A stretch of 64,000 nucleotides of DNA, taken from assembly GCF_001518015.1 (NCBI RefSeq), contig NZ_LPUY01000077.1:1-64000 (forward strand). Reading direction: 5' to 3'. This document shows, one piece after another, positions 3,938 to 18,565 of this stretch (position 1 is the stretch's first letter; each line of letters begins with the position of its first letter). The DNA comes from Tritonibacter horizontis. Its GTDB lineage: Bacteria > Pseudomonadota > Alphaproteobacteria > Rhodobacterales > Rhodobacteraceae. Under the pieces are notes generated by a model. It was not told where the DNA came from, searched no databases, and saw only the letters and a list, made by a program, of their open reading frames with translations. A program made the position numbers and the translations under genes.

Positions 3938-3978
3938 ACGGCCCCCGGTCCCGCGCCGGAGGCCCCGCAGGGGCGTCC

Positions 3979-4037
3979 GGCGCCCGGCCCAACGGGATGG
4001 GACGTCGCGCCAGCGGCGGCGCAGACGGGCGGGAGCC
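3979..4037 (+). repeat. Hairpin repeat family 1, copy A
   Basis: Block 1 GGCGCCCGGCCCAAC (3979-3993) and block 2 GGGCGGGAGCC (4027-4037) flank a hairpin: GTCGCGCC (4004-4011) pairs with GGCGC-A-GAC (4018-4026) with one bulged A. Blocks 1 and 2 can also pair (CCCGGCCC with GGGCGGG). It lies 41 bases after the DUF815 stop and reads in the gene's direction. The 419-bp convergent gap 3938-4356 holds this copy, copy B and extra hairpins, but no credible gene. Confidence 0.7.
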
Positions 4038-4118
4038 TCCCCCTTTGCGGCGCGCTGCGACGGAGAAGCGAGCGCGACTGCGGGAAGGGTCGCAGCTAGG
4101 TCAACCCTGCTGACCTAT

Positions 4119-4168
4119 TGTTTCGCACGCGAAACATTGGGACAGAAAGGCTGATACTTTTTCTGCCC
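4119..4168. terminator. Hairpin cluster between convergent genes
   Basis: TGTTTCGC (4119-4126) pairs perfectly with GCGAAACA (4129-4136) around a 2-base loop. Right after it GGG-A-CAGAAA (4139-4148) pairs with TTTCTGCCC (4160-4168) with one bulged A. The region separates the plus-strand DUF815 gene from the minus-strand NlpD-like gene and is a plausible bidirectional terminator. No uninterrupted T run is present. Confidence 0.4.
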
Positions 4169-4259
4169 GTTGCCGGATCGGCGAACGCATAGATCTGGGT
4201 TTTCCGCCCTGCGGCGCAACGGCCTTCGGAGGCTGGTCTGTCGCGACAATCGGCGGGGT

Positions 4260-4315
4260 GCTCCCGCCCGGTGCGCCCCTCCGGCGGGCGGGCCGCACCC
4301 GTTGGGCCGGGCGCC
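4260..4315 (-). repeat. Hairpin repeat family 1, copy B
   Basis: This is read on the minus strand. Block 1 is the complement of GTTGGGCCGGGCGCC (4301-4315) and block 2 the complement of GCTCCCGCCC (4260-4269). Between them GGTGCG (4270-4275) pairs with CGCACC (4294-4299), and the stem continues inwards with CCC/GGG. It is 42 bases downstream of the NlpD-like gene, in that gene's direction, and inverted relative to copy A. Confidence 0.7.
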
Positions 4316-4356
4316 GGACCTGTCGGTCCGGCGCGGGTTGCATTCCGCCTGAGGGG

Positions 4357-5616
4357 TTATTGCAGGTAGGGCAGCGGGTCGACGCTGTCAAAACCGTCGC
4401 GCACCTCGAAATGGACATAGGCCTCTTCCGGGGAGGCGCGCAGCTGTGCGATGGATTGGCCGCGATTGACGCGGTCGCCTTTGGAAACCTTGATGGCATC
4501 GACATTGGCGTAGACCGACAGCAGGTTGCGGTCATGGCGCACGACGATGATCGGGATCTTGTTGGAATCCGCCGTGATTGCGGCAATCGTGCCCGCCTCG
4601 GCGGCCTTGACCGCGCTGCCCGGCGCGGCGGAGATGTCGATGCCGTCGTTCTTGCCCTTGGAGTAGGTGCGGATGATCTTGCCATTCACCGGATAGGCCA
4701 TCGCGCTTTGCGAGGCGCGCGACGGGGCCTGGACCTCGACCGTTGGCGCGGGCTCGGCCTGGGATTCGGCGGCCGGTGTCACGTCCTCGTCCGGCAGCGG
4801 CCGGGCGGCGCTGGGGGGCGTTGGAGTGCTGCTGCCGGCTCCGGGCGGGGCGACGGCGACCTCTGTCTCTACGGGGGCGGCTGGCGCGTTCTGATCCTTG
4901 AGCGGGATCAGCAGGTACTGCCCTTCGCGCACCGAGAAATCGCTGTCGAGGCCGTTCCAGTCGGAGAGGGATTTGACCGAGATCTGATAGAGGCGGGCAA
5001 TCGTATAGGCGGTCTCGCCGCGGGTGACCTTGTGGCGGACCGGTTCCGGGCCGGGCTGGACCTGCGTCGGCACCGGCTTGGCCGGGGTTTTCTGCAAGGT
5101 GGTGGTGGTCACGGAGCCGGGGTTGGGCGAGGTGGCGGGGGCGCTGTCGATGGCGCTGCCGGCCAGCGAGGCGATATCGACACCGCCGGGATTTGTGCTG
5201 CCGCCGCGCACTGATGCTTCTGGCGCACGGCGTGGCAGGACCAGCACCTCGCCCTTGCGCAGGACATCGTCGGTCTGCACCCCGTTGAACTTGGCCACCT
5301 CGACCGAGGGCAGGCCGATCCGGGTTGCCAGATCCGCGACCGTGTCACCGCGCTGGGCGACGGCGACCTGATACGACGGATAGGTGATCAATCCGCGGCT
5401 ATCCGGCGTTGGTCGGATCTCGGTTGCATCCTGGGCGGCAGTGGTGGTGTTGAAGGCGCCGATCTGGCCCCGCAGGTCATAGTCCAGCGGCGCAGTACAG
5501 GCCGCCGCCAGCAGCACAAGGGGAACCAGACAGGTCCCTTTGCGGCGGAGGGCGAGGCCAAGGGGGCGAGTGGGCCGGAAACCGGCGGGGCGAAGGACCT
5601 TGCGGGGGCGGGTCAT
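4357..5616 (-). CDS. NlpD-like LysM/M23 lipoprotein, degenerate active site
   Basis: This 419-residue envelope protein probably activates peptidoglycan amidases during division, as NlpD does. It has a lipobox-like LLAAAC with Cys40, two LysM domains (about residues 79-127 and 193-239), a Pro/Ala/Glu linker and a C-terminal LytM/M23 domain (about 305-419). The zinc ligands look lost: the first His is Asn in KNDGIDIS, and HxH has become YVHFEVR with only one His. That favours a non-catalytic activator over a hydrolase. GAGGAGAG precedes the ATG. It lies downstream of surE-pcm, the position of nlpD in many proteobacteria, 123 bases after pcm. Confidence 0.85.
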   Translation of the reverse strand: MTRPRKVLRPAGFRPTRPLGLALRRKGTCLVPLVLLAAACTAPLDYDLRGQIGAFNTTTAAQDATEIRPTPDSRGLITYPSYQVAVAQRGDTVADLATRIGLPSVEVAKFNGVQTDDVLRKGEVLVLPRRAPEASVRGGSTNPGGVDIASLAGSAIDSAPATSPNPGSVTTTTLQKTPAKPVPTQVQPGPEPVRHKVTRGETAYTIARLYQISVKSLSDWNGLDSDFSVREGQYLLIPLKDQNAPAAPVETEVAVAPPGAGSSTPTPPSAARPLPDEDVTPAAESQAEPAPTVEVQAPSRASQSAMAYPVNGKIIRTYSKGKNDGIDISAAPGSAVKAAEAGTIAAITADSNKIPIIVVRHDRNLLSVYANVDAIKVSKGDRVNRGQSIAQLRASPEEAYVHFEVRDGFDSVDPLPYLQ

Positions 5617-5739
5617 GTCTTTGCTCTCCTCGAATGGTGTCTCCTGTCAGACGGAGACTTGGACGGCAGCGGCCGGCAACGGGGCGCGGTGACAGACAAC
5701 CGGACCGGCGAATGGCAGCTCCCTTTGGCATAGGACAGC

Positions 5740-6387
5740 TCAGGTGTCTTTTCCAAGCCCTTCCAGCAGCGGAACAAAGCGCACGGGGCGCAATTCGTCA
5801 TATTCGAGGCCGAATTCTGTCTTGCGCACGCGAATGAGGGTTTGCACGGCATCGGACTGACCGACGGGCACCACCATGATGCCGCCAACCTTGAGCTGTG
5901 CCAGGAGCGGGCCGGGGGGGTCCTCGGCGGCGGCTGTCACGATGATTCGATCAAACGGCGCCTGGTCGGGCAGCCCGTGGCTGCCGTCGCCGACCAGCGA
6001 GGTGATATTGGGCAGGCGCAGGGTCTGAAACACCTTGCGCGCCTCATGCACCAGCCTGTTGTAGCGTTCGATCGTATAGACCCGGCGGGCCAGTTTCGCC
6101 AGAATAGCAGCCTGATAGCCCGAGCCGGTGCCGATTTCGAGCACCGTGTCACGCGGGGAGACCTGCAGCGCCTGGGTCATCAGCCCCACCACCGAAGGTT
6201 GCGAAATGGTCTGACCGCAGGCAATCGGCAGCGGCACGTCCTCATAGGCGCGGTCAGCGAAAATGCCGCGCAGGAACAGGCCGCGATCCACGGATTCCAT
6301 CGCTTCGAGCACAGCAGTGTCGGTCACCCCCCGCGACCGCAGGGCAAAGAGAAATTGCATCTTGGTTTCCGCATCAGGCGTGGTCAT
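5740..6387 (-). CDS. pcm: Protein-L-isoaspartate O-methyltransferase
   Basis: This enzyme uses S-adenosylmethionine to methylate isoaspartyl residues in aged proteins, starting their repair. The 215-residue product carries the class I methyltransferase motif [13 protein letters not shown] (about residues 78-90). It also has the family segments [18 protein letters not shown] and [10 protein letters not shown]. Its start overlaps the surE stop (ATGA), giving the common surE-pcm stationary-phase survival pair, with the nlpD-like gene next. Length and motifs are normal. Confidence 0.96.
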
Positions 6388-7166
6388 TCGATTGCCTTGA
6401 GGGCCTCCAGCGCATCATAGGCGGTCAGATCCGCGCGCATGGGCGTGACTGAGATATAGCCATCGAGATTGGCCTTTGCATCGGTCTCGTCGGCCGTCGC
6501 CACCTGTTGATCACCGCCCTGGATCCAGACGTAGCGGCGTCCGTTCGGGGACAGCTGTTGCTGGGCCGAAAACCGCGTGCCCTGCCGGTAGCCCTGTCGG
6601 GTCACCCGGATCCCTTTGACCTCTGTATCGGCGACCGGCGGGAAGTTGATGTTGTAAAACAGCCCGTAGTCCTGCCGGTTCTCCGGTTTGGCTGCCAGCA
6701 GTTTTTGCACAACTGCCGCACCATGGACGCGGGCGGCGGCGAAAGGATCGTCGATCGCGCGGTTGCCGGGGCCGTAGTATTGCGACAGGGCCATGGCTGG
6801 CAGCCCCTGCAGTGCGCCCTCCATGGCGCCCCCCAGGGTGCCGGAATAGAGCGCGTTCTCGGCGGAATTGTTGCCTCGGTTGACGCCGGAGAGGACCAGA
6901 TCCGGGCGGCGGTCCTGCAACACCACATGCAGCCCGGCCAGCACGCAGTCGGCTGGCGAGCCTTCGGTGGCAAAGCGGCGCGGGCCGAGTTCGGTGATCA
7001 TCGAAGGGTGGGTATAGCTGATGCAATGGCCGACGCCGGATTGTTCAAAAGCGGGCGCCACGGTCCAGACCTCCCCATCCGGGCCGGCAAGGGTGGCGGC
7101 GATCTCTTCGAGCACGGTCAGGCCGGGAGCGCTTATGCCATCGTCGTTGGTGACCAGAATGCGCAT
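6384..7166 (-). CDS. surE: 5'/3'-nucleotidase SurE
   Basis: SurE is a metal-dependent nucleotide phosphatase. The 260-residue product starts [15 protein letters not shown], with the metal-binding TNDDG at residues 6-10, and has [18 protein letters not shown] further in. The ATG at 7166 is chosen because the family always starts a few residues before the first strand; the in-frame extension upstream has a shadow-like composition. It is coupled to pcm by a four-base overlap. Confidence 0.96.
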
Positions 7167-7386
7167 ACGGATCCCTTGCTGTGCTGCAGACCTTGGCTGT
7201 TTGGTGTCGTTTTCAACAGCCTGCCGGTTTTGGTCCTGTCTAGGGGGCGGCGGGCGACAGGGCAAGGATTTTGCCCGCAACCGTGCGGGCGGCCCCCGGT
7301 GGGTGTGACCAAATCGCCCGACCGGTCGCGGTGGACGGCGGGGCCGGGCGATCAAACCCCAAGCTGTCCTATGGATCCGGGGCTGG

Positions 7387-7430
7387 TCGGGGCGCTGCCC
7401 CGAACCCCGAGGTATTTTCAAAAAGATGAA
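7387..7430 (+). repeat. Repeat family 2, copy 1 (hairpin + CCCCGAGGTATTTTC)
   Basis: A stem TCGGGGC-GCT-GCCCCGA (7387-7403) is followed at once by CCCCGAGGTATTTTC and AAAAAGATGAA (7405-7430). The same hairpin-plus-motif unit recurs at 31350-31395 (inverted) and 37965-38013. This copy is in the 301-bp gap 7167-7467 between the SDR stop and the surE start; I see no gene there. Confidence 0.7.
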
Positions 7431-7467
7431 GCCGCAGGCCAGGGGAAGGCCCCGCGTGGGTGGGGCG

Positions 7468-8115
7468 CTAGCTGGCGAGGATCTGCGGCAGTAGGGCCGC
7501 AGCGGCCTCGGCCGATGAGGTCAGAGCCGCGCGATCCTCGCCCGGAAAAAACCGGGCGCGCAGGGCGGTTGGCATCGGTGGTGGCGAGAGCAGACGCACC
7601 TGGGGACCGGTGCGCAGGGTTTCTTGTTGCCAGCTGCGCACCAGGGCCAGCTGGGCGGCCTTGGTGGCGCCGTAAGCGCCGAAGAATTTGTCGCCACCGC
7701 GCGGGTCATCAAAAAAGACGGCGGTGCCGGTCTGGCCGAGCAGGGGGGCGACATAGGGGATCAACAGCGACGGTGCCGTGGCATTGATCGCGACCGATTT
7801 TGTCCAGTCCTTGGCCGCCACATGATGGGCCGGGCTGAGCGGAGCGGCGTGGATGGCGGTGTGGATCCAGAGGTCCAATTTGCCCCAGCGGTCAAACAGG
7901 CCGCGACACAGGGTTGCCATGGCCTCGGGGACTGTGATGTCCATCGGGGCCAGCGTCGCGGCACCGCCGAGGGCGCGGATGCGATCGTCGAGCTCTTCGA
8001 GCGCACCGGTGGTGCGGGCGACGGCTACGATATGGTGGGTTGGCGCAAGCGCCTCGGCCAAGGCGGCGCCAAGGCCCCGCGAGGCCCCGGTGATAAGGGC
8101 GAGTCTGTCGGTCAT
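7468..8115 (-). CDS. SDR family NAD(P)-dependent oxidoreductase
   Basis: This 215-residue classical short-chain dehydrogenase/reductase has the nucleotide-binding TGASRGLG at residues 9-16. The catalytic YGATK lies near residues 148-152, and NATA takes the place of the usual NNAG. The substrate-binding C-terminal region is short, so the substrate cannot be guessed. The gene stands alone on the minus strand between two gaps; its downstream gap holds a family 2 repeat. Confidence 0.85.
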
Positions 8116-8208
8116 GGGCGTCTACATGCGGTGCGGCTGCGCCGGGGTCAAGCCCTGGCCGCAGCGGTGAGCGAGATGGGGCAATCGGTCGCCCCGGGGC
8201 GGGGCGGC

Positions 8209-8463
8209 TCAGTTGGCGAGGATGGGCAGGCGCGCGAGGGTGCCGCGCTGATCGACCAGCAGCCCCTTGGCATCAATGCCGACGATGCGGCCGATCGACA
8301 GGCGTTCTCCGGCGCGGACGGTGCGGATCTGGCCGGAGGGGAAGCGCACCAGGCCCTGCAGCGCGTCCTGGGGGCCGAAGAGGCCGATCAGGGCCAGGCC
8401 CCGGCCGGGCAGGGCGTTCTTTTGCGTGGCGATGCGGCCGGTGGTGGTTTGCGGATTGGCCAT
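8209..8463 (-). CDS. Conserved small hypothetical protein
   Basis: This 84-residue protein begins MANPQTTTGRIATQ; the ATG at 8463 is preferred to a longer in-frame start that would run into the upstream gene. It is basic at the N-terminus and has the pattern ALIGLFGPQDALQGLVRFPSG. The C-terminal half reads like a small beta-barrel or SH3-like domain (GERLSIGRIVGIDAKGLLV). I recall similar short proteins in Rhodobacterales but no function. It lies 31 bases after the DUF2199 gene, so the two are probably co-transcribed. Confidence 0.55.
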   Translation of the reverse strand: MANPQTTTGRIATQKNALPGRGLALIGLFGPQDALQGLVRFPSGQIRTVRAGERLSIGRIVGIDAKGLLVDQRGTLARLPILAN

Positions 8464-8494
8464 GCGGGTGGCGGTCTCTTTTGCTGTGGTCGGG

Positions 8495-9058
8495 TCAGGC
8501 GTCGTAGACCAGCGAGGCGAGGTCGTGGCCATAGGCATGCAACATCGCCAGGAGCTGTTCGAGATCGACGCCGAGTTCCTGCATCCGGGCCAGTTCGTGG
8601 TTCACTTCGGAGATCTGCAGTTCCGGATATTCGCCCTCGGGACGCATATGCAACATACAGGCCAAGGGGCCTCCGCTGTCGGGCGGGATCTGGTTGGACA
8701 GCCAGGCAGGGCGGCTGCCCATGGTTTCGATTTCGCGCATGTCAAAGAGGTCAAGATATTCGTCGAAGACCTCTTCGCTGACCCCGGCCCAGGTGCCGAG
8801 GATGAATTCCTCGCCGCCGGTGTCGGCCAGCGGCACCGCCAGCACGGCGCGCAGGAACCGCAGGGTGCCAAAGCGGCAGAAATCCTCGGTCAGCACATCG
8901 CCGTCGGTGGCAAAAACCGCCGTGTTGTCCTGCACCGGCAGGTCCGGCGGACAGATGTCGGGCCGGTCGCAGGAGAGGCTCAGGAGCTGAGAGAAGGTCG
9001 CACCGCAACAGCGGCACTGACGCGATGAACTCAGCATGCGGGCAAGATGCGCGTCCAA
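8495..9058 (-). CDS. DUF2199 domain protein
   Basis: This 187-residue soluble protein has an N-terminal zinc-binding-like pair (CRCCGATFSQLLSLSCDRP, about residues 15-33). The middle region EEFILGTWAGVSEEVFDEYLD matches the DUF2199 pattern as I recall it (family of unknown function). The first Cys pair could bind metal together with CPP at about 36. The small gene at 8209 follows on the same strand. Start and length are usual for the family. Confidence 0.75.
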   Translation of the reverse strand: MDAHLARMLSSSRQCRCCGATFSQLLSLSCDRPDICPPDLPVQDNTAVFATDGDVLTEDFCRFGTLRFLRAVLAVPLADTGGEEFILGTWAGVSEEVFDEYLDLFDMREIETMGSRPAWLSNQIPPDSGGPLACMLHMRPEGEYPELQISEVNHELARMQELGVDLEQLLAMLHAYGHDLASLVYDA

Positions 9059-9091
9059 GAAGGCGCCCCTTTCGAAATCAAAATAGAGAAA

Positions 9092-9117
9092 GGCGCTGAC
9101 CGGTCGGGGTCAGCGCC
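9092..9117 (-). terminator. Intrinsic terminator downstream of purF
   Basis: GGCGCTGACC (9092-9101) pairs perfectly with GGTCAGCGCC (9108-9117) around a 6-base loop. On the minus strand it is followed by TTTCTCTATTTTGATTT. It lies 135 bases past the purF stop and before the DUF2199 gene, so it separates these transcripts. Confidence 0.7.
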
Positions 9118-9252
9118 ATTTGGTATGCGTCCGCGCTCCCTTACGCCTGTTGGCGGAGAAGTGCAATCACCGGGCAAGATGGTGACAGCAGGACCGGCAC
9201 AGAGCTGCCATCGTGCGATGCCGGACGTGCCGTCGCCCGATGCCGGGCGCGA

Positions 9253-10773
9253 TCAGGAGGCCAGCGTCGCCCCGTTCCACGACCCGCCGGCATTTGGCAT
9301 GTCCTTGATTTTCTTGCTGACGCGGCTGCTGTTTTCCAGGGAGTTGAGGTAGTCGGCGCTGACGCTGCCGGTGATGTATTTGCCGTCAAAACAGGAACAG
9401 TCAAAGCTCTCGATCTCGGCATTGCCTTCCTTGGCGGCCCAGACCAGGTCTTCGAGTTTCTGATAGAACAGGGCGTCGGCCCCCAGTTCCTGGCGAATCT
9501 CTTCGAGGCTGAGGCCATTGGCGATCAGCTCGTGTTTGGTGGGCATGTCGATGCCATAGACATTGGGGTATTTCACCGGCGGTGAGGCGGAGGCGATATA
9601 GACCTTCTTGGCGCCGGCCTCGCGGCACATCTGCACGATTTTCTTGATCGTATTGCCGCGCACGATGCTGTCGTCGATCAGCAGGATATTGCGGTCCTTC
9701 ATCTCCAGCGGAATGGCGTTCAGTTTGCGGCGGACAGATTTCTGACGCTCCGCCTGACCAGGCATGATAAAGGTGCGACCGACATAACGGTTTTTGACCA
9801 GCGCCTCGCGGTAGCGGATGCCGGTGGCGTTGGAAACCTCGAGTGCCACCGGACGGGCGCTGTCGGGCACCGGAATGACCGCGTCGATGTCCAGCCCGGA
9901 GGCGGCAATCTGTTTCGCCAGGGCCTCGCCCATGCGCAATTGCGTCTTATAGACAGATATCCCGTCGAGCATGGAATCCGGCCGCGCCAGATAGACATAT
10001 TCAAAAATGCAGGGGGTCAGCTTGCCTTCGACCGCCTGAAACTCGTGCAGGTTGCCCTCAAGATCGACAAGGATGGCCTCGCCCGGTTTCAAATCACGCA
10101 GCTTTTCAAACCCGTTGATGCCAAAAGCCACATCTTCGGAGGCAAAGGCGTAGTCGTTCCCGTCGCCCTCGGCCTTGCGCTGTGCCACAGAGAGGGGCCG
10201 AATGCCGTGGGGGTCGCGGAAGGCCAGCATGCCGACGCCGGCAATCAGGCAGATCACGGAATAGGCGCCCTGCACCCGCTCCATCGTCATCTTGACGCCG
10301 GCCAAGATGTTGCGGATCGGATCGGTATTGCCATTGACCTTGATCGCGTCGGCGACCTTGTCCGCAAGCACGTTCAGCAGGATTTCGGAATCGGAATTTG
10401 TCCGCAGGTGGCGGCTGTATTTCCCGGTGACCTTGGCGCGCTGTTCAGCGGTATTGGTGATATTGCCGTTGTGTACCAGATAGATACCGTAGGGCGCGTT
10501 GACAAAGAACGGCTGCGCCTCGGAGGCGGCCAGCGATCCGGCGGTGGGATAGCGCACATGGCCCATGCCGATGCGGCCGATCAACGTATCGGCATCCCGG
10601 GCGTTGAAGACGTCCTTGACCAGACCGTTGGCCTTGCGTTCGTGGAAGAAGCCATCGCCATAGGTGACGATGCCTGACGCGTCCTGGCCGCGATGCTGTA
10701 GCATCAACAGGCCGTCATAGAGTTCCGCAAACACTTGTTCGGTTCTGCTTGCGATGCCCAAGATACCGCACAT
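9253..10773 (-). CDS. purF: Amidophosphoribosyltransferase
   Basis: PurF catalyses the first committed step of purine synthesis: PRPP plus glutamine to phosphoribosylamine. The start MCGILGIASRTEQ puts the catalytic Cys at residue 2 after Met removal, which fixes the ATG at 10773. The glutaminase part has MLQHRGQDASG and HNGNITN. The PRPP-binding loop ILLIDDSIVRGNTIKKIV lies in the C-terminal half. The length, 506 residues, is typical. Its usual neighbour cvpA is close, but a Hint-domain gene and two gaps separate them. Confidence 0.97.
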   Translation of the reverse strand: MCGILGIASRTEQVFAELYDGLLMLQHRGQDASGIVTYGDGFFHERKANGLVKDVFNARDADTLIGRIGMGHVRYPTAGSLAASEAQPFFVNAPYGIYLVHNGNITNTAEQRAKVTGKYSRHLRTNSDSEILLNVLADKVADAIKVNGNTDPIRNILAGVKMTMERVQGAYSVICLIAGVGMLAFRDPHGIRPLSVAQRKAEGDGNDYAFASEDVAFGINGFEKLRDLKPGEAILVDLEGNLHEFQAVEGKLTPCIFEYVYLARPDSMLDGISVYKTQLRMGEALAKQIAASGLDIDAVIPVPDSARPVALEVSNATGIRYREALVKNRYVGRTFIMPGQAERQKSVRRKLNAIPLEMKDRNILLIDDSIVRGNTIKKIVQMCREAGAKKVYIASASPPVKYPNVYGIDMPTKHELIANGLSLEEIRQELGADALFYQKLEDLVWAAKEGNAEIESFDCSCFDGKYITGSVSADYLNSLENSSRVSKKIKDMPNAGGSWNGATLAS

Positions 10774-11434
10774 GGCGTGGCTCCAATATTTCTGTCGTGT
10801 TGGCTTACAGCGGCGAGGCTGCAGCGAGAGAGGCAGGACCCGTCCCCCGGCGATGAGGGCCGAAGGCAGGATCCATGAAGAGCTGTGTGTTCGAAAGCGG
10901 CGAAGCCGGGCCATGACCCGGAGGCCGCGCCACATGGCGCAGAGTCAGGTGGCGCAGGGTCAGGCGTGGTCTGCAAGAGGGGGCAGCGGCGGGGCGGAGA
11001 GTGCCGGTCGCGGCCCCAGATGCGCCGCCGACGGGTGCAGGGCGAGCGAGACTTGCCGCAGGGGCAGATCCAGCAGCCAGGGACGGGCGGCTCAGGTCGG
11101 CGTGGTGTTGGGTCAACACAGGGGCGTCAGCTCCGAATCCGGTCGAACAGGGACGGCCCTCACATAGGCGCTCTGGCCGGCAATGTCATCAAAGGATCAC
11201 AATGCTGGCCCGGATATCGCGCGGATTTTCATGCGCGCCATGGGCCACGCCACGAAAAGGAGCGTCAATTGTCTTGGGGCTGCATAAAAGAGCGTGGTCG
11301 GCGACCCCGTGCGGACAGACGGGGCGGCGGATGCTGGCACGGGAGCGCGGGGTCCCCCATGTCGCAATCGGCGGCGATCGGCTGGCGATCAGCGGCGCCG
11401 GGCAGGTCCCTGCGATCCGTGATCAGATCGGGGA
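10774..11434. other. 661-bp gap upstream of purF, no gene supported
   Basis: The stretch between purF and the Hint gene is G+C-rich. It is crossed only by Arg-rich frames typical of non-coding high-GC DNA. The one tidy element is a dyad GTGTTG-GGT-CAACAC at 11105-11119, about 330 bp before the purF start, which might be an operator. I see no repeat-family copy or RNA gene here. Confidence 0.5.
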
Positions 11435-12163
11435 TCAGGCGGCGTAGCGGCCGAACAGCAGGTCGAGGGGGTCAAATTTCGGCGCCGGGCACAGGGAGAA
11501 ATCAAAGATGTCTTCGTCCCCTTCGCCGGTGGGCGCCAGATCGGTGCCAAGATCGGCGTCTTTTTCGATCTGGTCCTGACGGGCGGCCGCGACGATCTGA
11601 CGGGTGTCTGTCAGCGACAGAACATCATAGAAATCATCCGCGCCGGTTTCGCTGGCCTTGAGCAGCAGACCGCCTTCGGCCCAGAGCAGTTCTTCCTCTT
11701 CGCATTCGATGTAGATCCGGGCGAGCCGCTGGGGCAGGGCGGTGGTGATCCCGTGGTAGCCGACAAGCGCCACCAGTTTGACGGACACCACCGGCAGGTC
11801 AAAGAGGTCGAGGGCGATGCCACCCTCAAGCGCGACAACCGCGTCGGAGGGCAGGTCCAGCGCCGCATCATTGCCGAGTGCGCCGGCCGGAACATGCACC
11901 ATCGCCGTGAGGCGCGGCACGCAGTGACGGATGTTGAAGACCTCGCGCAGGCCGCCATCAAAGGTCTGAACCTGATCGCCGGGGCGCAGGGCGCGGGCCT
12001 GTTTGAACCCCTGTGGTGTCTCGATGAGGGTGCCGGGCAGCACACCGCCCTGTTGGGGGCGGGCGCGGGACGCGGTTGATGTCTGAGCGCTGTCCGAACG
12101 CAGGTCCAGAAGCAGGTCAACCGGCTGATAATCTGTAAACGCGGTGGTGTGATCCAGCAGCAT
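11435..12163 (-). CDS. Hint-domain protein without splicing cysteine
   Basis: This 242-residue protein has a central Hint (Hedgehog/intein) fold signature, LPGTLIETPQGFKQARALRPGDQV, beginning about residue 40. The usual first residue Cys (as in CFTPGT) is absent; the sequence is QGGVLPGT. Self-cleavage by the standard N-S acyl shift is therefore unlikely. An acidic C-terminus (EGDEDIFDFSL) follows, and no signal peptide is seen. The start at 12163 has AAGGGAC 7-8 bases upstream on the minus strand; the longer frame adds a non-conserved leader. The gap before it holds two CtrA-type boxes. Function unknown; related proteins occur across Rhodobacterales. Confidence 0.75.
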   Translation of the reverse strand: MLLDHTTAFTDYQPVDLLLDLRSDSAQTSTASRARPQQGGVLPGTLIETPQGFKQARALRPGDQVQTFDGGLREVFNIRHCVPRLTAMVHVPAGALGNDAALDLPSDAVVALEGGIALDLFDLPVVSVKLVALVGYHGITTALPQRLARIYIECEEEELLWAEGGLLLKASETGADDFYDVLSLTDTRQIVAAARQDQIEKDADLGTDLAPTGEGDEDIFDFSLCPAPKFDPLDLLFGRYAA

Positions 12164-12332
12164 GTTATCTTGTCCCTTCTGAGAGCACCGAGGCTTTTGC
12201 CTTCGTTGATCCCAATTGGCCCTCGAATTGGGCCGAAAATGGGGCAAGCTTGGGACGCTTTCCGCACCTTCGCGGGTTTGAGGCTGGAAAAACACTTATC
12301 TATCCAAAGGTTAACGGCCTGGCTGGGGGTAA

Positions 12333-12418
12333 TTAACCCTTTCTTAAGGAAATCGAAAGGTGCTTGCGGTAGGTTTACGGTGTTTAGAATCGATTCTTTA
12401 TTATTAACAAATGGTTAA
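12333..12418. promoter_or_regulatory. Two CtrA-type boxes and a GANTC palindrome
   Basis: Exact TTAA-N7-TTAA boxes lie at 12333-12347 (TTAACCCTTTCTTAA) and 12404-12418 (TTAACAAATGGTTAA). Between them is the 12-base palindrome AGAATCGATTCT (12386-12397), which contains two overlapping GANTC (CcrM methylation) sites. Extra TTAAC half-sites flank this AT-rich patch. The 395-bp gap 12164-12558 has a terminator at its cvpA end, so the only promoter it can serve is that of the Hint gene, 170-255 bp away. Confidence 0.65.
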
Positions 12419-12453
12419 TGAAGCGCCGCGCCTGTTAACACGAAAGAAGCCTC

Positions 12454-12462
12454 TGTGGATAA
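12454..12462 (-). promoter_or_regulatory. Single consensus DnaA box
   Basis: TGTGGATAA is an exact TTATCCACA DnaA box on the minus strand, next to the AT-rich patch with the CtrA-type boxes. One box is too little for an origin and may be chance (about one exact match is expected in 64 kb), but DnaA, CtrA and CcrM sites together suggest cell-cycle control. Confidence 0.35.
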
Positions 12463-12510
12463 CTCTGTGTGTTGTTCAAAGGCGCCAAGTTTCGACATGG
12501 TGCCAAAACA

Positions 12511-12536
12511 AAAGGCGCCCGAGACCGGGCGCCTTT
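12511..12536 (-). terminator. Intrinsic terminator of radA-cvpA
   Basis: AAAGGCGCCC (12511-12520) and GGGCGCCTTT (12527-12536) form a perfect 10-bp stem with a 6-base loop, 22 bases past the cvpA stop. On the minus strand a TTTTGTTTTGG tract follows. It uncouples cvpA from the Hint gene and purF. Confidence 0.8.
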
Positions 12537-12558
12537 GAGGCCTCAGGCTGAGAAGGGG

Positions 12559-13113
12559 TCAACCTTCGCAGGAGGAAATCAGATCTTCGTACTTCTGCGT
12601 GACCCAGCCCAGAGCCTGCTCCGGGTTGCGTTCTTCGACCTTGCCGATCACCCGGTTGAACACCGCGGCAGAGCGGCTTTCGTCCACCATCGTGAAACTT
12701 TGGCCGGTCATGACGACATTGTAGACAAAGAACCCGATCACCACGAGCAGGATCCCGCGCAGCACGCCGAAGAAAAAGCCCGCGCCCTGGTCGATCCCGC
12801 CAAGTGCGGAGCGTTGCACCAGCCCGGCCAGCAGCGGGGTGAAAAAGGACACGACAATCAGCGCCACCGCAAAGACGGCGAAGAAGGCCGCGATCAGCGA
12901 GAGTTCGCAGCTGTCCGCGATGAAATCGCCGATCACCGGGATCTCTGCCATCAGCGGTTCGGCCTTTGGCGCGAACATATAGGACAGAATGCCGGCCGCG
13001 ATCCAGCCAATGATGGCCATGATCTCGCGCACAAAGCCGCGTGCATAGGCGAGAAGTGCCGAAACTACGATGACAAGCGCAACCGCGCCGTCGATAATGG
13101 TGAAACCTTCCAT
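12559..13113 (-). CDS. cvpA: CvpA family membrane protein
   Basis: This 184-residue inner-membrane protein has four predicted helices, at about residues 8-25, 32-48, 72-95 and 110-132. The family signature ARGFVREIMAIIGWIAAG lies near the N-terminus. CvpA was named for colicin V production and typically sits beside purF; it is also linked to envelope stress. Here it follows radA by 41 bases and ends at a strong terminator. The C-terminal tail after about residue 135 is soluble. Confidence 0.9.
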   Translation of the reverse strand: MEGFTIIDGAVALVIVVSALLAYARGFVREIMAIIGWIAAGILSYMFAPKAEPLMAEIPVIGDFIADSCELSLIAAFFAVFAVALIVVSFFTPLLAGLVQRSALGGIDQGAGFFFGVLRGILLVVIGFFVYNVVMTGQSFTMVDESRSAAVFNRVIGKVEERNPEQALGWVTQKYEDLISSCEG

Positions 13114-13154
13114 GTGCCTCGCCTGTTGCCCGCAAAATATCCGTTAGTGGCCTT

Positions 13155-14531
13155 TTAGCCGGCTCCGAAATATTCGCCAACAAATCCTGTGAGGTCGGAG
13201 GCCGGGCGCAGGGTCAGGCCGGAGACGGAAACGGATTTGCCGCCACTCGGAGCGATCGCTGACGTGAAACCAAGTTTTTGCGCTTCTTTCAACCGGTTTT
13301 CGGTCTGCGGGGCGGGCCGAAGGGCGCTGGACAGAGATATTTCGCCAAAAATCACCGTGTCTGGCGGCAGGCAGGTGTCTTCGCGGGCGCTGAGCAGGGC
13401 GGCGGCCACTGCGAGGTCGGCGGCGGGTTCCGAGATTTTCATGCCGCCCGCCACATTGAGATAGACGTCCAGCCCGGCAAAGGGGATGCCGCAGCGCGCC
13501 TCAAGCACGGCGAGGATCATCGCCAGACGCGAGCTGTCCCAGCCAACGACGGCGCGGCGCGGCTGAGAATGCGGCGAGGGGGCAACCAGCGCCTGCATCT
13601 CTACCAGCACCGGGCGGGTGCCTTCGATGCCGGCAAAAACGACAGAGCCGGGGGAGGGCTGGCCGCGTTCGGACAGGAACAGCGCCGAGGGGTTGAGCAC
13701 CTGGGCCAGGCCAGCGCCGGTCATTTCAAAAACGCCGATCTCGTCCGCCGGGCCAAAGCGGTTCTTGACCGCGCGCAGAATGCGGAACTGATGGCCGCGC
13801 TCTCCCTCGAAATAGAGCACGGTGTCGACCATATGTTCGACCACGCGGGGGCCGGCGATCTGGCCGTCCTTGGTGACATGGCCGACCATGATGATGGAAA
13901 CGCCATTGGTCTTGGCAAAGGTGGTCAGCTCATGCGCGGCGGCGCGCACCTGGCTGACGGAGCCCGGCGCGCTGTCGACATTGTCGGCCCACATGGTCTG
14001 GATCGAGTCGATGATGGCAAGCTGTGGTTTTTCCGCCTCCAGCGTGGTCAGGATATCCCGCAGGTTGGTTTCGGCAGCGAGTTTCACCGGCGCCTGTTCC
14101 AGCCCCAGCCGCTGCGCCCGCATGCGGACCTGGGCCGAGGCTTCCTCGCCGGAGACATAGATTGTTTTCAGCCCCGCATTGGCGAATTGCGCGGCGGCCT
14201 GCAACAGAAGGGTTGATTTGCCGATGCCCGGATCGCCGCCGACCAGAATGGCCGAGGCCTCGACCAGACCGCCGCCAAGTACCCGGTCGAGTTCGGCGAC
14301 ACCACAAAGCGTGCGGGGAGGCGGGGTTTCCTGGGTGGCGAGGTCGGTCAGGGGCACGCGTTTGCCGCGCATTGCCCCCAGGGATTTCTTGGCCGGACCG
14401 GCGGAGGTCAGGCCCTTGTCCTCGGAAATGGTGTTCCAGTCGCCGCATCCGTCGCAGCGGCCGGACCACTTTGTAAAGGAGGCGCCGCAGGCGGAACAGG
14501 AGAAGGAGGTTTTTGCCGGTGATTTTGCCAT
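13155..14531 (-). CDS. radA: DNA repair protein RadA
   Basis: RadA (Sms) is a RecA-like ATPase that promotes branch migration in recombination repair. The 458-residue product has a zinc finger (C12-x2-C15-x10-C26-x2-C29), Walker A GGDPGIGKSTLL and the RadA-specific KNRFG motif in LRAVKNRFGPADE. A Lon-protease-like C-terminal domain follows (AGGMKISEPAADLAVAAALL). The ATG at 14531 places the zinc finger at the N-terminus as usual; the in-frame upstream extension is not conserved in character. cvpA follows. Confidence 0.96.
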   Translation of the reverse strand: MAKSPAKTSFSCSACGASFTKWSGRCDGCGDWNTISEDKGLTSAGPAKKSLGAMRGKRVPLTDLATQETPPPRTLCGVAELDRVLGGGLVEASAILVGGDPGIGKSTLLLQAAAQFANAGLKTIYVSGEEASAQVRMRAQRLGLEQAPVKLAAETNLRDILTTLEAEKPQLAIIDSIQTMWADNVDSAPGSVSQVRAAAHELTTFAKTNGVSIIMVGHVTKDGQIAGPRVVEHMVDTVLYFEGERGHQFRILRAVKNRFGPADEIGVFEMTGAGLAQVLNPSALFLSERGQPSPGSVVFAGIEGTRPVLVEMQALVAPSPHSQPRRAVVGWDSSRLAMILAVLEARCGIPFAGLDVYLNVAGGMKISEPAADLAVAAALLSAREDTCLPPDTVIFGEISLSSALRPAPQTENRLKEAQKLGFTSAIAPSGGKSVSVSGLTLRPASDLTGFVGEYFGAG

Positions 14532-14600
14532 CCTGGATCTGTGGCAGATGTTTCCGGTTTGTTCAAGTCCGTTGGCGCCGCATTTATGCGCGCGGCGCAC

Positions 14601-14658
14601 GCTCCCGCCGGTCGGCCGATCCTTTGAAAAGGATCGCCACCCGTTTGGGCCGGGCGCC
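14601..14658 (-). repeat. Hairpin repeat family 1, copy C
   Basis: This is read on the minus strand. Block 1 is the complement of GTTTGGGCCGGGCGCC (14643-14658) and block 2 the complement of GCTCCCGCC (14601-14609). The central stem is CGATCCTTT (14617-14625) with AAAGGATCG (14628-14636) around a GA loop, extended by GG/CC past one bulge. It lies in the 269-bp gap between the pqiA-like stop and radA, downstream of pqiA in its direction. Confidence 0.7.
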
Positions 14659-14800
14659 GCTGGCGCGGCGCAGTAAGAAGACGTGCTGAGAAGCGGTTCA
14701 GGGGCAGGTCTGCCCTGAACGCGCCAGAGCCAGTCTGGGTGCGAGTCGCCGTCGCGTCAATGATCTGCGACCGCGCGGGGCGCGGCGGCCCGCTGGGCCG

Positions 14801-15268
14801 TCATTGACCCGCCGTCGACTCGCGGTGGATCTGGCGTTCGGTCAGATGGGACAGAAGGCCAGAGGCGAGGATGCAGGCGGTGAACAGATAGAGCCCCCAG
14901 GCGGTCTGGATCGTGGCGTAGCCGATGCCCTTGGCCAGTGTGATATAGAGCGCAATCAGGAAGACATCGGCCATGGCGAGTTTACTCAGGACATTGAGCG
15001 CGGGCAGGGCGTGGGCGCCGAGCTGGTGAAACTGCACCAGCAGCAGGGCAATGGTTTTGAGATAAGGCGCAACGATGGCAAATATGGTGACGATCAGCGC
15101 CAGTGCGATGTCGCTTTGCCAAAGGCTGCTGAGGCCGGTGACGACGGAAATTTCCGACAAGCCGAAGATCGGCAACAATCCGGCGCGCATCAGCGGTGCG
15201 GACCAGGCGACGGGGTAGAGGATCAGGAGTGAGAGGGTGGCGAGGCGGAGGAGGGGCAGCACGGTCAT
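14801..15268 (-). CDS. PqiA-like (paraquat-inducible protein A) membrane protein
   Basis: This 155-residue protein has about four membrane helices and the PqiA-type segments YPVAWSAPLMRAG, FAIVAPYLKTIALLLVQ and LSKLAMADVFLIALYI. PqiA domains accompany MCE-type lipid transport systems across the envelope, which fits the mlaF-mlaE genes just upstream. The ATG at 15268 is preferred; the longer frame upstream runs through the neighbouring gene. It is a single-domain form, about a third the size of E. coli PqiA. No MCE-domain (MlaD/PqiB) gene is in the window. Confidence 0.75.
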   Translation of the reverse strand: MTVLPLLRLATLSLLILYPVAWSAPLMRAGLLPIFGLSEISVVTGLSSLWQSDIALALIVTIFAIVAPYLKTIALLLVQFHQLGAHALPALNVLSKLAMADVFLIALYITLAKGIGYATIQTAWGLYLFTACILASGLLSHLTERQIHRESTAGQ

Positions 15269-15270
15269 GC

Positions 15271-15645
15271 TTATTCGCCATAACTCGCTACGGCACTCGC
15301 AGAAGCGATCAATACGAGCACGTTCAGCAAGACGACGGCGTCCGTGCGCCAAAATGAAAATCGCGTCTTGAATACATAGAAGATCCAATCTCCAGCGATC
15401 CCTATGTACAGCATTATTTGTGCGGGCAAAGCGAATTGAGAAAGCCCCAAACCACCGGGAAAAGCATATGTTGCACTGCTCAGGAGAAACCACGTGACAG
15501 AGAGGATGATGCCAGCGGCAAGCTTGTGGTCTCTAAGGCCGGATCGCCATTTATGGATGAGGGCGATGCACGCTGTAACTGGAAGTAGGAGGAGCGCAGA
15601 GGTTACGAGCGTGACGAGCAGATCATAATTGACGATGCTACTCAC
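15271..15645 (-). CDS. Small four-helix membrane protein, unknown
   Basis: This 124-residue protein has four hydrophobic stretches (about residues 8-28, 42-62, 72-92, 100-120). It starts with an ATGA overlap on the mlaF stop and ends two bases before the pqiA-like start, so it is within the operon. Its DNA is visibly less G+C-rich than both neighbours and uses more A/T-ending codons, which suggests later insertion. I recognise no family. A helper subunit of the lipid transporter is one possibility by position only. Confidence 0.6.
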   Translation of the reverse strand: MSSIVNYDLLVTLVTSALLLLPVTACIALIHKWRSGLRDHKLAAGIILSVTWFLLSSATYAFPGGLGLSQFALPAQIMLYIGIAGDWIFYVFKTRFSFWRTDAVVLLNVLVLIASASAVASYGE

Positions 15646-16412
15646 CGGACCGCCTCGATCGGCCCCTCTGCGCTGCCGGAGATGAATTGCTCCACATAAG
15701 GGTCGCCCGAGTGGTCCATCTCGGCCACGGGACCCGTCCAGCGGATCTTGCCGCCGTGGAGCATGGCGACATTGTCGGCAATGGCGCGCACCGAGGTCAT
15801 GTCGTGGGTGATGGTCATGGCGGTGGCGCCCATTTCAACCACGATTTCACGGATCAGGTCGTTGATGACCCCGGCCATGATCGGGTCCAGCCCGGTTGTG
15901 GGCTCGTCAAAAAAGATGATTTCCGGTTCGGCCGCGATGGCGCGGGCCAGGCCGACGCGTTTTTGCATGCCGCCGGACAACTCGGCGGGAAGGCGGTCAG
16001 CGACGTCCGGCTTGAGCCCGACGCGGCGCAGTTTCTCAATCGCGATGTCGCGGGCCTCATCGCGGGGGCGGGCGAGGCTGCCGCGCAGCAGACGGAAGGC
16101 GACGTTCTGCCAGACCGGCAGGGAGTCAAACAGCGCGCCGCCCTGAAACAGCATGCCGAACCGCGCCAGAAAGGCGTCGCGTTCCGCGCTGCCGGTCCCG
16201 CTGCCAACGCTTTTGCCGTCAACGGCGATGCGGCCGCTGTCCTGCGGGATCAGTCCGAGGACGGATTTCAGCATCACGGATTTACCGGTGCCGGAGCCGC
16301 CGATGATCACCATGGAGGTGCCACGGGCGATGGTCAGGTCGATCCCGCGCAGAACGGCATTGCTGCCAAAGGTCTTGTGGACGTCGGACATCTCGATCAT
16401 CGGGTGGGTCAT
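15642..16412 (-). CDS. mlaF: MlaF-type ABC transporter ATP-binding protein
   Basis: This is the ATPase of an Mla-like system that moves phospholipids between outer and inner membrane to keep lipid asymmetry. The 256-residue product has Walker A GGSGTGKSVML, the signature LSGGMQKRVGLARA typical of the MlaF subfamily (QKR rather than QQR), Walker B IIFFDEPTTGLD and the switch His in TITHDM. Its start overlaps mlaE by ATGA. Confidence 0.93.
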   Translation of the reverse strand: MTHPMIEMSDVHKTFGSNAVLRGIDLTIARGTSMVIIGGSGTGKSVMLKSVLGLIPQDSGRIAVDGKSVGSGTGSAERDAFLARFGMLFQGGALFDSLPVWQNVAFRLLRGSLARPRDEARDIAIEKLRRVGLKPDVADRLPAELSGGMQKRVGLARAIAAEPEIIFFDEPTTGLDPIMAGVINDLIREIVVEMGATAMTITHDMTSVRAIADNVAMLHGGKIRWTGPVAEMDHSGDPYVEQFISGSAEGPIEAVR

Positions 16413-17191
16413 AGCGAGAAAAACACCCCTGTGAGCGCGAAGTTTGCCGCGAGGATCAGAATGGCGGCGGCCTCGACCGAGCTTTTGGTGGCCTGTCCCA
16501 CGCCCTGGGCGCCCCGGCCTGATTGCATACCGAAGTAGCAGCCCATCAGGGCGGCGATGGTGCCGAAGGCGGCGCCCTTGACGAGGCTGGAGATGATATC
16601 GCGTGGTTCGAGAAAGTTGACGGTGTTCTTGAGATAGGCGGCGGCGTTGAAATCCAACGTCTCGGTCGCGACCACATAGCCACCAAGAATTCCGATGATG
16701 TCGCCGACGCCGACCAGCACCGGCACCGTCAGCAGGGCGGCCAGCACGCGGGGCGCGACGAGGTATTTCATCGGGTTGGTGGAGAGCGTGACCAGCGCGT
16801 CGATCTGCTCTGTCACTTTCATCGTTGCGATTTCGGCGGCAATCGAAGAGGTGACGCGGGCTGCGATCATCAGCCCAACCAATACGGGGCCAAGTTCACG
16901 CACCATGCCGATGGCGACGATCTGGGGCACCACGGCCTCGGCATTGAAACGCGCACCGCCCGCATAGATCTGCAACGCCAGCGCGCCGCCGGTAAAAATC
17001 GCCGTCAGCGCCACCACCGGCAAGGAGAGCCAGCCGATCTGCAGCAGGGCTACGGCGAATTCACGCGGGTAGAAGGGCGGCCGGGCCATATGGCTGAAGG
17101 TCGAGGCGGCAAAACGTGTGATCCGCCCGAGGGCGGCGAGCCGCCCGAGAGCGGCCTGGCCGATGGCGCCAAGAACAGAAACCGGGGTCAT
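16409..17191 (-). CDS. mlaE: MlaE-type ABC transporter permease
   Basis: This is the inner-membrane permease partner of MlaF. The 260-residue product has an amphipathic N-terminal region and about five helices. It carries the MlaE hallmarks [35 protein letters not shown] and [16 protein letters not shown]. It overlaps alr upstream (ATGA) and mlaF downstream, forming alr-mlaE-mlaF. The Gly-rich coupling region is complete. Confidence 0.93.
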
Positions 17192-18225
17192 GCGCTATAG
17201 GTCCGTGCGTAGCGGTTTCCAAGCGAGGTCAGCACCTCGTAGCCGATGGTGCCTGCAGCGTTGGCCAGCATGTCGACCGTCTGCGCCTCGTTCATCAGGG
17301 AGAGCATGGCCGGAACCTCTGGCAGGTCGGTCACATCGACGGTGATCAGATCCATGGAGATCCGGCCGACCACCGGGCAGGGGGTGCCTTCGGCATAGGC
17401 CATGATGCCCTGACGCTGAAAGGCGCGGTGGAGACCGTCGGCATATCCGGCTGCGAGGGTGGCGATGCGGGTGTCGCGCTGGGCGATCCAGGTATTGCCG
17501 TAGCCGACGCTTTCACCGGGCGAGAGGTCGCGGGTCTGGATCACCGGCACTTCCAGTTCGACCACCGGCAGGGCGCCATCAAAAGGCGCGCCGCCATAGA
17601 GGCCGATCCCAGGGCGGCAGAGGTCGAAATGATAGTCGCGCCCGAGGAGCAATCCACCGGTCGCCGCGAGAGAGCGGGGCAGGTTCAACCCCTCGGTCAT
17701 CTCGATGAAATTCCGGAGCTGATAGGGGTTCATGCCGTGGCTCGGCTCGTCGGCGCAGGCGAGATGCGACATCAGCAGGACAGGGTTCTGGTCCAGGGCG
17801 ATGTCGCGCACCGCCATCCATTCCGCCGCCTCCATGCCAAGCCGGTTCATGCCGCTGTCGAGCTGAACGCCAAAGGGGTGGCCCGGTAAGCTCTCGAAGT
17901 GGCGCAGCATCTGGTCGAGCGAATTGAGCATCGGGGTCAGTTGAAAGTCGCGCAGCAGTTTCGCGTCGCCCTCCATATGACCGGAGAACACCGAAATGCC
18001 GGGTCCAGGGCCGATGCTGCGTCGCAGAGCGATGCCTTCTTCGGCTATCGCGACAAAGAAATTGCGTGCGCCTGCCTGGGCCAGCGCCTTGCCGACGCGG
18101 CCGGCATCAAGCCCATAGCCATTGGCCTTGACCACGGCAGCGGTCTCGCAGCCGGTCTTGGCATCCAGATTGCGCCAGTTGATCGCAAGCGCATCCAGGT
18201 TGATTTTCAAACGTGCCGTACTCAT
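17188..18225 (-). CDS. alr: Alanine racemase
   Basis: Alr interconverts L- and D-alanine for peptidoglycan. The 345-residue fold type III PLP enzyme has the PLP-binding [12 protein letters not shown] (Lys about residue 33). SVGYGNTW carries the catalytic Tyr of the C-terminal domain, and [16 protein letters not shown] is also present. It is the first gene of the run with mlaE and mlaF. It follows dnaB across a 340-bp gap that holds a family 1 repeat. Confidence 0.95.
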
Positions 18226-18444
18226 GGGTTGTTCATGACATGGAAGGCGCGAGGGTCAAGTGGGAAACCGCTGTCGGTTTCGGTTTGAGCGATGGGCTGC
18301 GGATCTTTGACGCCGTAGGCGGGCGGGCGGCGTCATAAATGCGCGCGGGCTGTCGCCATTGCTGCGTCGGCGCGCCGGGGCATCGCCCTTGCCGCGCGCT
18401 CTTCTAGCCGCGCAGGCCAGAGGGGACGCGCCCGCCGCGCCAGC

Positions 18445-18500
18445 GGCGCCCGGCCCAACTGTGGAGATTGCATTTTAATGCAAATTCCATGGGCGGGAGC
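18445..18500 (+). repeat. Hairpin repeat family 1, copy D
   Basis: Block 1 GGCGCCCGGCCCAAC (18445-18459) and block 2 GGGCGGGAGC (18491-18500) flank a hairpin. TTGCATT (18468-18474) pairs with AATGCAA (18477-18483), and the stem extends outwards through TGGA/TCCA to nearly fill the interval. It lies 66 bases past the dnaB stop, oriented against dnaB. The 340-bp gap 18226-18565 holds nothing else I can support. Confidence 0.7.
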
Positions 18501-18565
18501 CCGCCCCGGCCGGCCCCCACCCCTGGGCGTCGGGCGGTTTGCAGGGGCAGGACGAGGCGCCGGGC

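Follow-up and report, generated by a model that had tools for sequence, protein, structure and literature searches.

A family of two-hairpin repeats just outside gene ends in Tritonibacter horizontis and other roseobacters

Four copies of a two-hairpin element in a 64-kb window

The first 64,000 nucleotides (nt) of contig NZ_LPUY01000077.1 of Tritonibacter horizontis (the window) carry four copies of an intergenic element, between positions 3,953 and 18,506, among ordinary genes (for a DUF815 protein, a LysM/M23 peptidase, RadA, a PqiA family protein, alanine racemase and DnaB). Some roseobacter genomes carry dozens of such copies, each with two hairpins and located just outside the end of an ordinary gene, and the structure of the element is under selection on one strand. 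A preliminary description of this DNA had reported four copies of a repeat with two conserved blocks enclosing a variable stem; all four were found in place, with stems as described, but the description had missed hairpin 1 (H1), the C-rich tail, how many copies the genome has and their usual setting between convergent genes.

The complete unit of about 80 nt has the order H1 - CCGGCCCAAC - variable hairpin 2 (H2) - GGCGGGAGC - C-rich tail. When copies are lined up with their flanks, H1 is seen as an extra hairpin directly 5' of block 1 (GCGCCG-loop-CGGCGC), the 3' arm of which is formed by bases 1 to 5 of block 1. H2 is built from a lower stem made by the two blocks (CCCGgCC/GGCGGG, with a bulged G), followed by an AAC bulge and a free upper stem. 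The blocks thus do pair as the base of one long hairpin, as was proposed earlier, and since GGCGC of block 1 also closes H1 this base can pair in two ways. Of 147 non-redundant copies, 97% have a standard pair at the second layer above the AAC bulge (GC 91, CG 30, AT 10, GT 9 and TG 3). In the tail, positions 2 to 6 are C in 60-79% of copies, and 5' of H1 C alone is enriched, at -2 (69%) and -1 (65%). The parts of the four copies in the window are the following.

3953..3983, + strand: copy 1, H1 (GCGCCGGA...TCCGGCGC), with the start of block 1 as its 3' arm; read from the sequence and from the family test of H1
3979..4036, + strand: copy 1, block 1 - H2 - block 2 (GGCGCCCGGCCCAAC ... GGGCGGGAGC); model score 41.7 bits
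4037..4042, + strand: copy 1, C-rich tail
4254..4259, - strand: copy 2, C-rich tail
4260..4315, - strand: copy 2, block 1 - H2 - block 2; model score 49.2 bits
4311..4334, - strand: copy 2, H1 (GCGCCGGACC-GACA-GGTCCGGCGC)
14595..14600, - strand: copy 3, tail (GTGCGC)
14601..14658, - strand: copy 3, block 1 - H2 - block 2; model score 55.5 bits; orthologs aligned from 12 genomes including T. horizontis
14654..14671, - strand: copy 3, H1 (GCGCCGC-GCCA-GCGGCGC); compensatory changes in orthologs
18433..18448, + strand: copy 4, H1 (CGCCGC-GCCA-GCGGCG)
18445..18500, + strand: copy 4, block 1 - H2 - block 2; model score 60.1 bits
18501..18506, + strand: copy 4, C-rich tail

Copy 3 deviates in having CCCAAAC instead of CCCAAC and CGGCGGGAGC instead of GGGCGGGAGC. 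A covariance model built from 64 copies matched the window at 3973-4042 (+), 4254-4334 (-), 14595-14671 (-) and 18428-18506 (+), with one further hit at an expectation value (E) of 5. Block 1 (GGCGCCCGGCCCAAC with at most two mismatches) occurs four times in the window where 0.80 are expected, a number reached in none of 100 shuffles. Block 2 with at most one mismatch was found 17 times against 16 expected and is thus by itself a common word, with meaning only in the block pair. The pair at fixed spacing is not a chance finding: the exact pattern block1-N{12,40}-block2 has eight matches in the 4.86-Mb genome and the reversed control has none. The folding z-scores of the single copies 1 to 4 are -1.5, -0.9, -1.5 and -3.5, weak for three of the four, and the case for the structure therefore rests on the family.

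Distribution of the family

The covariance model gave 51 matches in the T. horizontis genome (E<=1) and, at E<=0.02, 85, 37 and 67 matches in three relatives (G007, G009 and G016, respectively); the T. horizontis count is a lower bound, as 150 of 7098 candidates were scored. The locus analyses below cover 50 of the 51 T. horizontis hits (one on contig C112 being left out) and 101 of 103 from relatives (two of locus L280 repeat L226), include part of the matches in G007, G009 and G016, and exclude copies without a readable core. The exact pattern was found in 15 of 18 genomes of the genus, in one of 19 from other genera of the family and in none of 24 from other families. Model matches occurred in at least 48 of 295 genomes of the family, a lower bound given that at most 15 candidates per genome were scored with strict filters, and T. 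horizontis was the sole genome with a match in a sample of 289 genomes of the class.

A scan of one genome per species gave at least 117 loci, the titles of which name Rhodobacterales genera or unplaced alphaproteobacteria, bar three loci, L058, L098 and L121. These three come from one record, titled Nocardioides marinus DP1N28-1, which is probably a mislabelled or contaminated roseobacter assembly. A plasmid search gave 136 records at E up to 10, of which 15 cover at least 80% of the query; these 15 are all from Tritonibacter, Leisingera, Ruegeria or Parasedimentitalea, and the rows for plasmids of E. coli, Streptomyces and the like are partial and at chance level (E of 0.2 or worse among the rows listed).

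No Rfam family matched the 64-kb window at the gathering threshold, and among ten matches at E up to 1 in three element loci only a tRNA scored above gathering. We found no description of the element in Rfam 15 or in the literature searched by topic and by motif words (a search that mostly excluded subscription journals), nor in the accessible portions of PMC2817692, PMC8632094, PMC12306157, PMC2267715, PMC2864571, PMC11109978, PMC4809877 and PMC5381666. Motif HRC-8-4 is likewise from Rhodobacterales and contains hairpins, as do other motifs of this order, but according to the accessible part of its description it is mainly tied to cco operons and has a run of U (PMC8632094), whereas the present element is dispersed and lacks a U run. 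The repeat family is large, conserved in structure and carried by a marine group of ecological importance.

Other palindromic repeats of alphaproteobacteria, among them the Caulobacter intergenic repeats (CIR), are long and intergenic with an inverted organisation. Set side by side by description only, CIR and the present element are alike in being inverted intergenic repeats in alphaproteobacteria.

The structure is under selection

That selection acts on structure, as suggested in the preliminary description, was borne out by tests of folding, covariation, an orthologous site and strand. Folding of the inner segment was matched by no more than five of its 100 shuffles in 111 of the 143 distinct copies with the exact pattern. 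H1 has at least 7 base pairs (bp) in 102 of 141 copies, with a mean of 7.8 bp versus 4.3 bp after shuffling. In an alignment of 64 copies the covariation score was 0.230 versus 0.103 when shuffled, a value reached in none of 500 shuffles. For this alignment 68 of the 143 copies were chosen (H1 of at least 6 bp within a set length range, a block-to-block length of 54-58 and less than 85% likeness), and L044, L065, L090 and L152, the stems of which fitted least, were dropped. As copies were picked partly by their stems, the pairing percentages of the 64 copies are inflated, above all for H1; the consensus structure was drawn by us from the same sequences. Pairs with double changes numbered 19 of 29, slightly above the shuffled mean of 16.8 (9 of 500 shuffles reach 19). 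The upper stem was paired in 54.5% in a fixed register, which is low because registers differ between copies.

A cleaner test than the covariation of dispersed copies is given by the orthologous site of copy 3, aligned from T. horizontis and 11 other genomes of the genus. Over these 12 rows 97.1% of the cells are paired, and six of 20 pairs show double changes, versus 1.4 after shuffling (none of 500 shuffles reaching six) and 0 or 1 in slid controls. The changes are GC to AU, CG to GC and CG to AU in H1, and AU to CG, UA to CG and CG to UA in H2. Compensatory change is strong in the family, including at a single orthologous site. G016 also has a model match at this site, outside the 12-row alignment. 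A relaxed pattern gave no copy in G001, G003, G012, G014 and G015, and as the same pattern missed the copy in G016, absence in these other genomes is uncertain.

Double changes are also made by template switching at palindromes. They would then be expected without any selection, if palindrome-templated mutation during replication kept the hairpins perfect. Such a process should treat both strands alike and fails on the strand biases given below, for which reason we consider it extremely improbable.

One strand folds

A G.T mismatch that is tolerated in the folded strand equals an A.C on the other, and mismatches can therefore tell which strand folds. Isolated mismatches in the H2 helix, counted for one helix per sequence cluster (clustering kept 157 of 251 inner segments for the mismatch and location tests), were G.T in 30 cases and A.C in two when read on the strand that has GGCCCAAC first. 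Random hairpins from the same loci gave 100 G.T versus 134 A.C and base composition predicts a ratio of 1.22 to 1, against which the bias has p-values of about 1e-8 and 2e-6, respectively. Without clustering the counts were 49 versus 7 for H2 and 10 versus 2 for H1; clustered H1 mismatches were one G.T and no A.C. The bias persists (7 versus 0) in copies flanked on both sides by genes of the other strand, and is thus independent of neighbour gene direction. Furthermore, a tandem G.A/A.G occurs in the first nine layers in 64 of the 147 copies kept for this test and the mirror tandem C.T in none. The folded molecule is the strand with GGCCCAAC first, as RNA or as single-stranded DNA.

We rejected a kink-turn at the AAC bulge, since a paired layer separates the bulge from the tandem G.A. 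Folding energy favours the strand with GGCCCAAC first in 133 of 157 segments (21 reverse), but does so in 124 of 157 shuffled segments as well (32 reverse); base composition accounts for much of the difference and folding energy was set aside as strand evidence. With a view to a replication-strand bias, the signs of the listed copies on the TM1040 chromosome appeared mixed by eye, the origin not being located.

According to the accessible part of PMC5381666, AU-GC switches in B. cereus terminators pass through GU in 89.5% of the cases with an inferable intermediate, and the G.T bias of the element is that expected of an RNA stem. The strand biases also bear on a role as a DNA-level site, that is a cruciform, or a site for a nucleoid or topology protein where the supercoils of convergent transcription meet. 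The conserved blocks, the inverted pairs and the preference for convergent gaps (see below) are in line with such a site; a cruciform, on the other hand, folds both strands equally and predicts neither an excess of G.T over A.C nor a one-sided tandem G.A, and we regard the proposal as unlikely.

A one-strand structure is likewise expected of a single-stranded recombination site. The core sites of attC form a pair, RYYYAAC ... GTTRRRY. The imperfect hairpin H2 has at its base, on the 5' side, GGCCCAAC, which fits RYYYAAC, yet no GTTRRRY partner was found at the 3' end of H2. Integron integrase (TIGR02249) was found above the cut-off in none of the 295 family genomes; the sub-threshold matches in 294 are taken for ordinary tyrosine recombinases. 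The copies lie beside ordinary chromosomal genes. A precedent is OTH-22-1, which the accessible text of PMC8632094 describes as attC-like and from several phyla, whereas the present element, compared with it by text description only, was found in one order. An attC-like identity therefore seems very unlikely.

Location relative to genes

The genes that flank the four copies in the window are the following.

3095..3937, + strand: DUF815 (PF05673) gene, ending 35 nt before the modelled start of copy 1
4357..5616, - strand: LysM and peptidase M23 gene, ending 22 nt from copy 2
13155..14531, - strand: RadA DNA repair gene, starting 63 nt after copy 3
14801..15268, - strand: PqiA family gene, ending 129 nt before copy 3
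17188..18225, - strand: alanine racemase gene, starting 202 nt from copy 4
18566..20083, - strand: replicative DNA helicase DnaB gene, opposing, its stop 59 nt beyond the tail of copy 4

All four copies thus lie within about 150 nt of a stop codon (35, 22, 129 and 59 nt for copies 1 to 4), and three of the four are oriented along the gene that they follow, both as reported in the preliminary description. The preference for 3' gene ends, just after stop codons, is general. Among the 157 non-redundant copies 91 lie between convergent genes, 30 between tandem genes on the opposite strand, 19 between tandem genes on the same strand and three between divergent genes; 13 have one neighbour only and one overlaps a gene call. 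Background gaps (90 nt or longer, from the same 8-kb loci and with element gaps included) were convergent in 111, tandem in 193 and divergent in 129 cases. The tail side is close to the stop of the opposing gene (median 28.5 or 39 nt in the two classes that have one) and the H1 side is farther from the gene (medians of 61 to 185.5 nt).

These contexts come from a simple gene caller of our own, which was compared with annotation at six plasmid loci. The PLSDB annotation of the TM1040 megaplasmid agrees in two convergent cases and one opposite-strand tandem; near 144650 a locus tag seems to be missing from the annotation table, and one plasmid element was placed by BLAST. On Leisingera and Parasedimentitalea plasmids a copy lies between the same convergent gene pair.

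In the loci examined we found 14 inverted pairs of copies and no same-direction pair; ten of the inverted pairs have their H1 ends together and four of these share one H1. Fourteen of the 51 model matches in T. horizontis are no more than 25 nt away from the end of a contig, always with the H1 side at the break (contigs C76, C127, C27, C71, C38, C57, C17, C88, C54, C134, C11, C139, C42 and C23). It seems that draft assemblies are interrupted at H1, perhaps where an inverted pair is centred on H1, and such pairs may for that reason be undercounted.

The folded strand is independent of the direction of the neighbours, and where both neighbours are on the other strand a median of about 185 nt is free upstream. 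This would suit genes for small RNAs, or parts of such RNAs, that act in trans and are transcribed on the folded strand from promoters of their own. However, 5' of H1 there is no conserved block but two C, hence no shared promoter at that place; the upper stem and loop differ among copies, so that no shared seed is evident, and the window lacks Rfam families at gathering threshold. We think a trans-acting small RNA unlikely.

Dispersal and turnover of copies

The copies are dispersed and occur in both orientations. Of the 50 T. horizontis copies analysed, 32 could be paired by their flanks with a copy in the partial sets from relatives, with changed stems, and for 31 of the 32 at least one candidate is in the same orientation; some of these rows match by one flank only, and L185 and L190 depend on weak flank matches. 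Of the copies in the window, copy 1 has counterparts in G016 and G005, and copy 2 in G016, G010 and G009. The site of copy 4 is occupied in G012 and G006. No copy was found there in seven of the nine relatives from which the gap was extracted (G007, G009, G005, G010, G011, G001 and G016); they have unrelated intergenic sequence at this site, with no clean empty site or target duplication.

A rival reading is that of a non-autonomous mobile hairpin like the repetitive extragenic palindromes (REP), the single-stranded DNA intermediate of which would be recognised on one strand by some enzyme and the insertions of which would be tolerated at 3' ends. We consider this reading doubtful, but it is the strongest competitor of the account as a whole; a REP-like origin by spreading is, moreover, compatible with an RNA element. 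As defined in the accessible part of PMC2817692, REP and the bacterial interspersed mosaic elements (BIME) are dispersed intergenic palindromes with tens of copies and inverted pairs. The present element resembles them in its dozens of dispersed copies, its place at gene ends and its inverted pairs. A patchy occurrence in the family, the lack of copy 4 in most relatives and a structure on one strand, which also fits single-stranded DNA, speak for mobility as well, as does the finding that stems are more alike within the sets of Tropicibacter R16_0, Falsiruegeria and Leisingera than to others. No such likeness was found within the Tritonibacter (0.16 versus 0.17) and Pseudophaeobacter (0.16 versus 0.16) sets.

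Further points speak against it. The domain of the REP-associated tyrosine transposases (RAYT; Y1_Tnp, PF01797) is absent from the T. horizontis genome, and is not associated with the element family-wide (6 of the 48 element genomes, itself a lower bound, versus 24 of 247 other genomes; p=0.60). The link to a REP-associated transposase that had been envisaged was thus not found, and by eye the 25 most recurrent of 874 neighbour proteins (ABC ATPases, other enzymes, regulators) included no transposase. A GT(A/G)G head before the palindrome, as in the GTAG/GTGG heads of REP, was not found either: the 5' flank shows only C and block 1 begins with GGCG. Unlike REP/BIME, with their conserved palindrome, the element has a second hairpin (H1), keeps its lower stem and frees its upper stem. 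Above all, the genus-wide compensatory change at one site is not explained by selection on mobility alone. If the family is mobile nonetheless, it would be REP-like and served by some mobiliser, and its copies would later have been kept for local use.

A possible role at gene borders

Compensation at a single site points to a local function, the strand bias to an exposed single strand with GGCCCAAC first, and the location to something acting at gene ends. The element probably does a real job there, rather than being repeat litter. Among the options of the preliminary description a function at 3' ends or borders is favoured, and our preferred reading, tentative and a little short of an even chance, is that of a cis-acting structured RNA that ends or protects transcripts at gene borders.

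RNA read from the strand with GGCCCAAC first would fold into H1 and the long H2, of which the lower stem, the AAC bulge, one covarying pair and often the tandem G.A are the parts that are kept and the upper stem the part that drifts with compensation. The element sits in the gap just outside the stop codon of a gene, its C-rich tail usually toward that stop, and as the tail points at the stop, a transcript bearing the element would come from outside the gene. This incoming transcript would mostly be the mRNA of the convergent neighbour, and otherwise an antisense or divergent transcript. We infer that the folded strand is transcribed and that a putative protein reads the conserved lower stem and the bulges, upon which the folded RNA may end or protect the incoming transcript, by 3'-end formation at which an exonuclease is blocked or by factor-assisted termination. 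The transcript would then be kept from running antisense into the facing gene. A REP-like spread may have come first, with copies kept by selection afterwards.

Several observations weigh against this role. The strand bias fits single-stranded DNA just as well as RNA. Both neighbours are on the other strand in 30 of 143 non-redundant copies, and the folded strand is therefore not their mRNA; that the strand which must fold is often antisense to the nearest gene is the puzzle left by the strand test. The preference in orientation between tandem genes is not significant (30 versus 19, p=0.15), and four of the 14 inverted pairs, that in the window included, have tails that face each other and not genes. 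A U-tract is lacking, a T-run of at least four being present in 6 of 129 copies on the folded strand and in 4 of 129 on the other. Lastly, a canonical terminator-like hairpin was found at 59 of 176 gene ends with an element and at 116 of 294 without one (p=0.20), a weak comparison as the rule is loose and 39% of the element-free ends pass it. Terminator hairpins are nearly as frequent at element ends, and the element is thus not clearly replacing them.

The intrinsic terminator that the preliminary description had offered as one option is therefore not what we see. Bacterial intrinsic terminators evolve compensatorily through GU, according to the accessible text of PMC5381666, and intrinsic and bidirectional terminators share with the element hairpins after stop codons, convergent genes and compensatory evolution. 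Unlike them, the element has no U-tract on either side, has sequence-conserved blocks and bulges, and is often antisense to the nearest gene. A narrower version of the border role, which we rate as rather unlikely, is that of an insulator against antisense invasion, in which a U-tract-free, protein-read hairpin outside the 3' end would stop a transcript that enters from behind. Inverted pairs sharing H1 would then shield both convergent genes at once, and the family would be a dispersed system of roseobacters that is selected gene by gene. If a role at gene borders is true, roseobacters would have a means, other than U-tract terminators, of keeping closely packed convergent genes apart at these sites.

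Other motifs and variants near the element

The word CGGCCCAAC was considered as a DNA-uptake word and dropped; it occurs five times in the window where 1.4 are expected, three of these inside copies, and is not an abundant free word. Another intergenic motif, CGAGGTATTTnnnAAAAGATGAA, is present at 7408-7430 (+), 37991-38013 (+) and 31350-31372 (-), that is three times in the window with at most three mismatches where none is expected, and has exact relatives in nine of 359 loci. In G007, G009, G005 and G001 a CGAGGTATTTnnnAAAAGATGAA-like motif follows a GC-rich hairpin at the site of copy 4, where the element is missing.

Beside copy 3, at 14684-14725 of the window, lies another short hairpin repeat, with a GGTTCAGGGGCAGGTCTGCCCTGAAC core. 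Near-identical copies of it are found elsewhere in the genus, some of which adjoin an element (e.g. G004:C209:9030-9071, at 100%, and G007:C1:42491-42523). In L014, L018, L027, L030 and L033 another perfect hairpin lies just 5' of H1. At L165 (1501-1605) the T. horizontis copy has a much longer H2 and its flank-matched relatives have one of the usual length, which may reflect growth of the stem while the site stayed the same.

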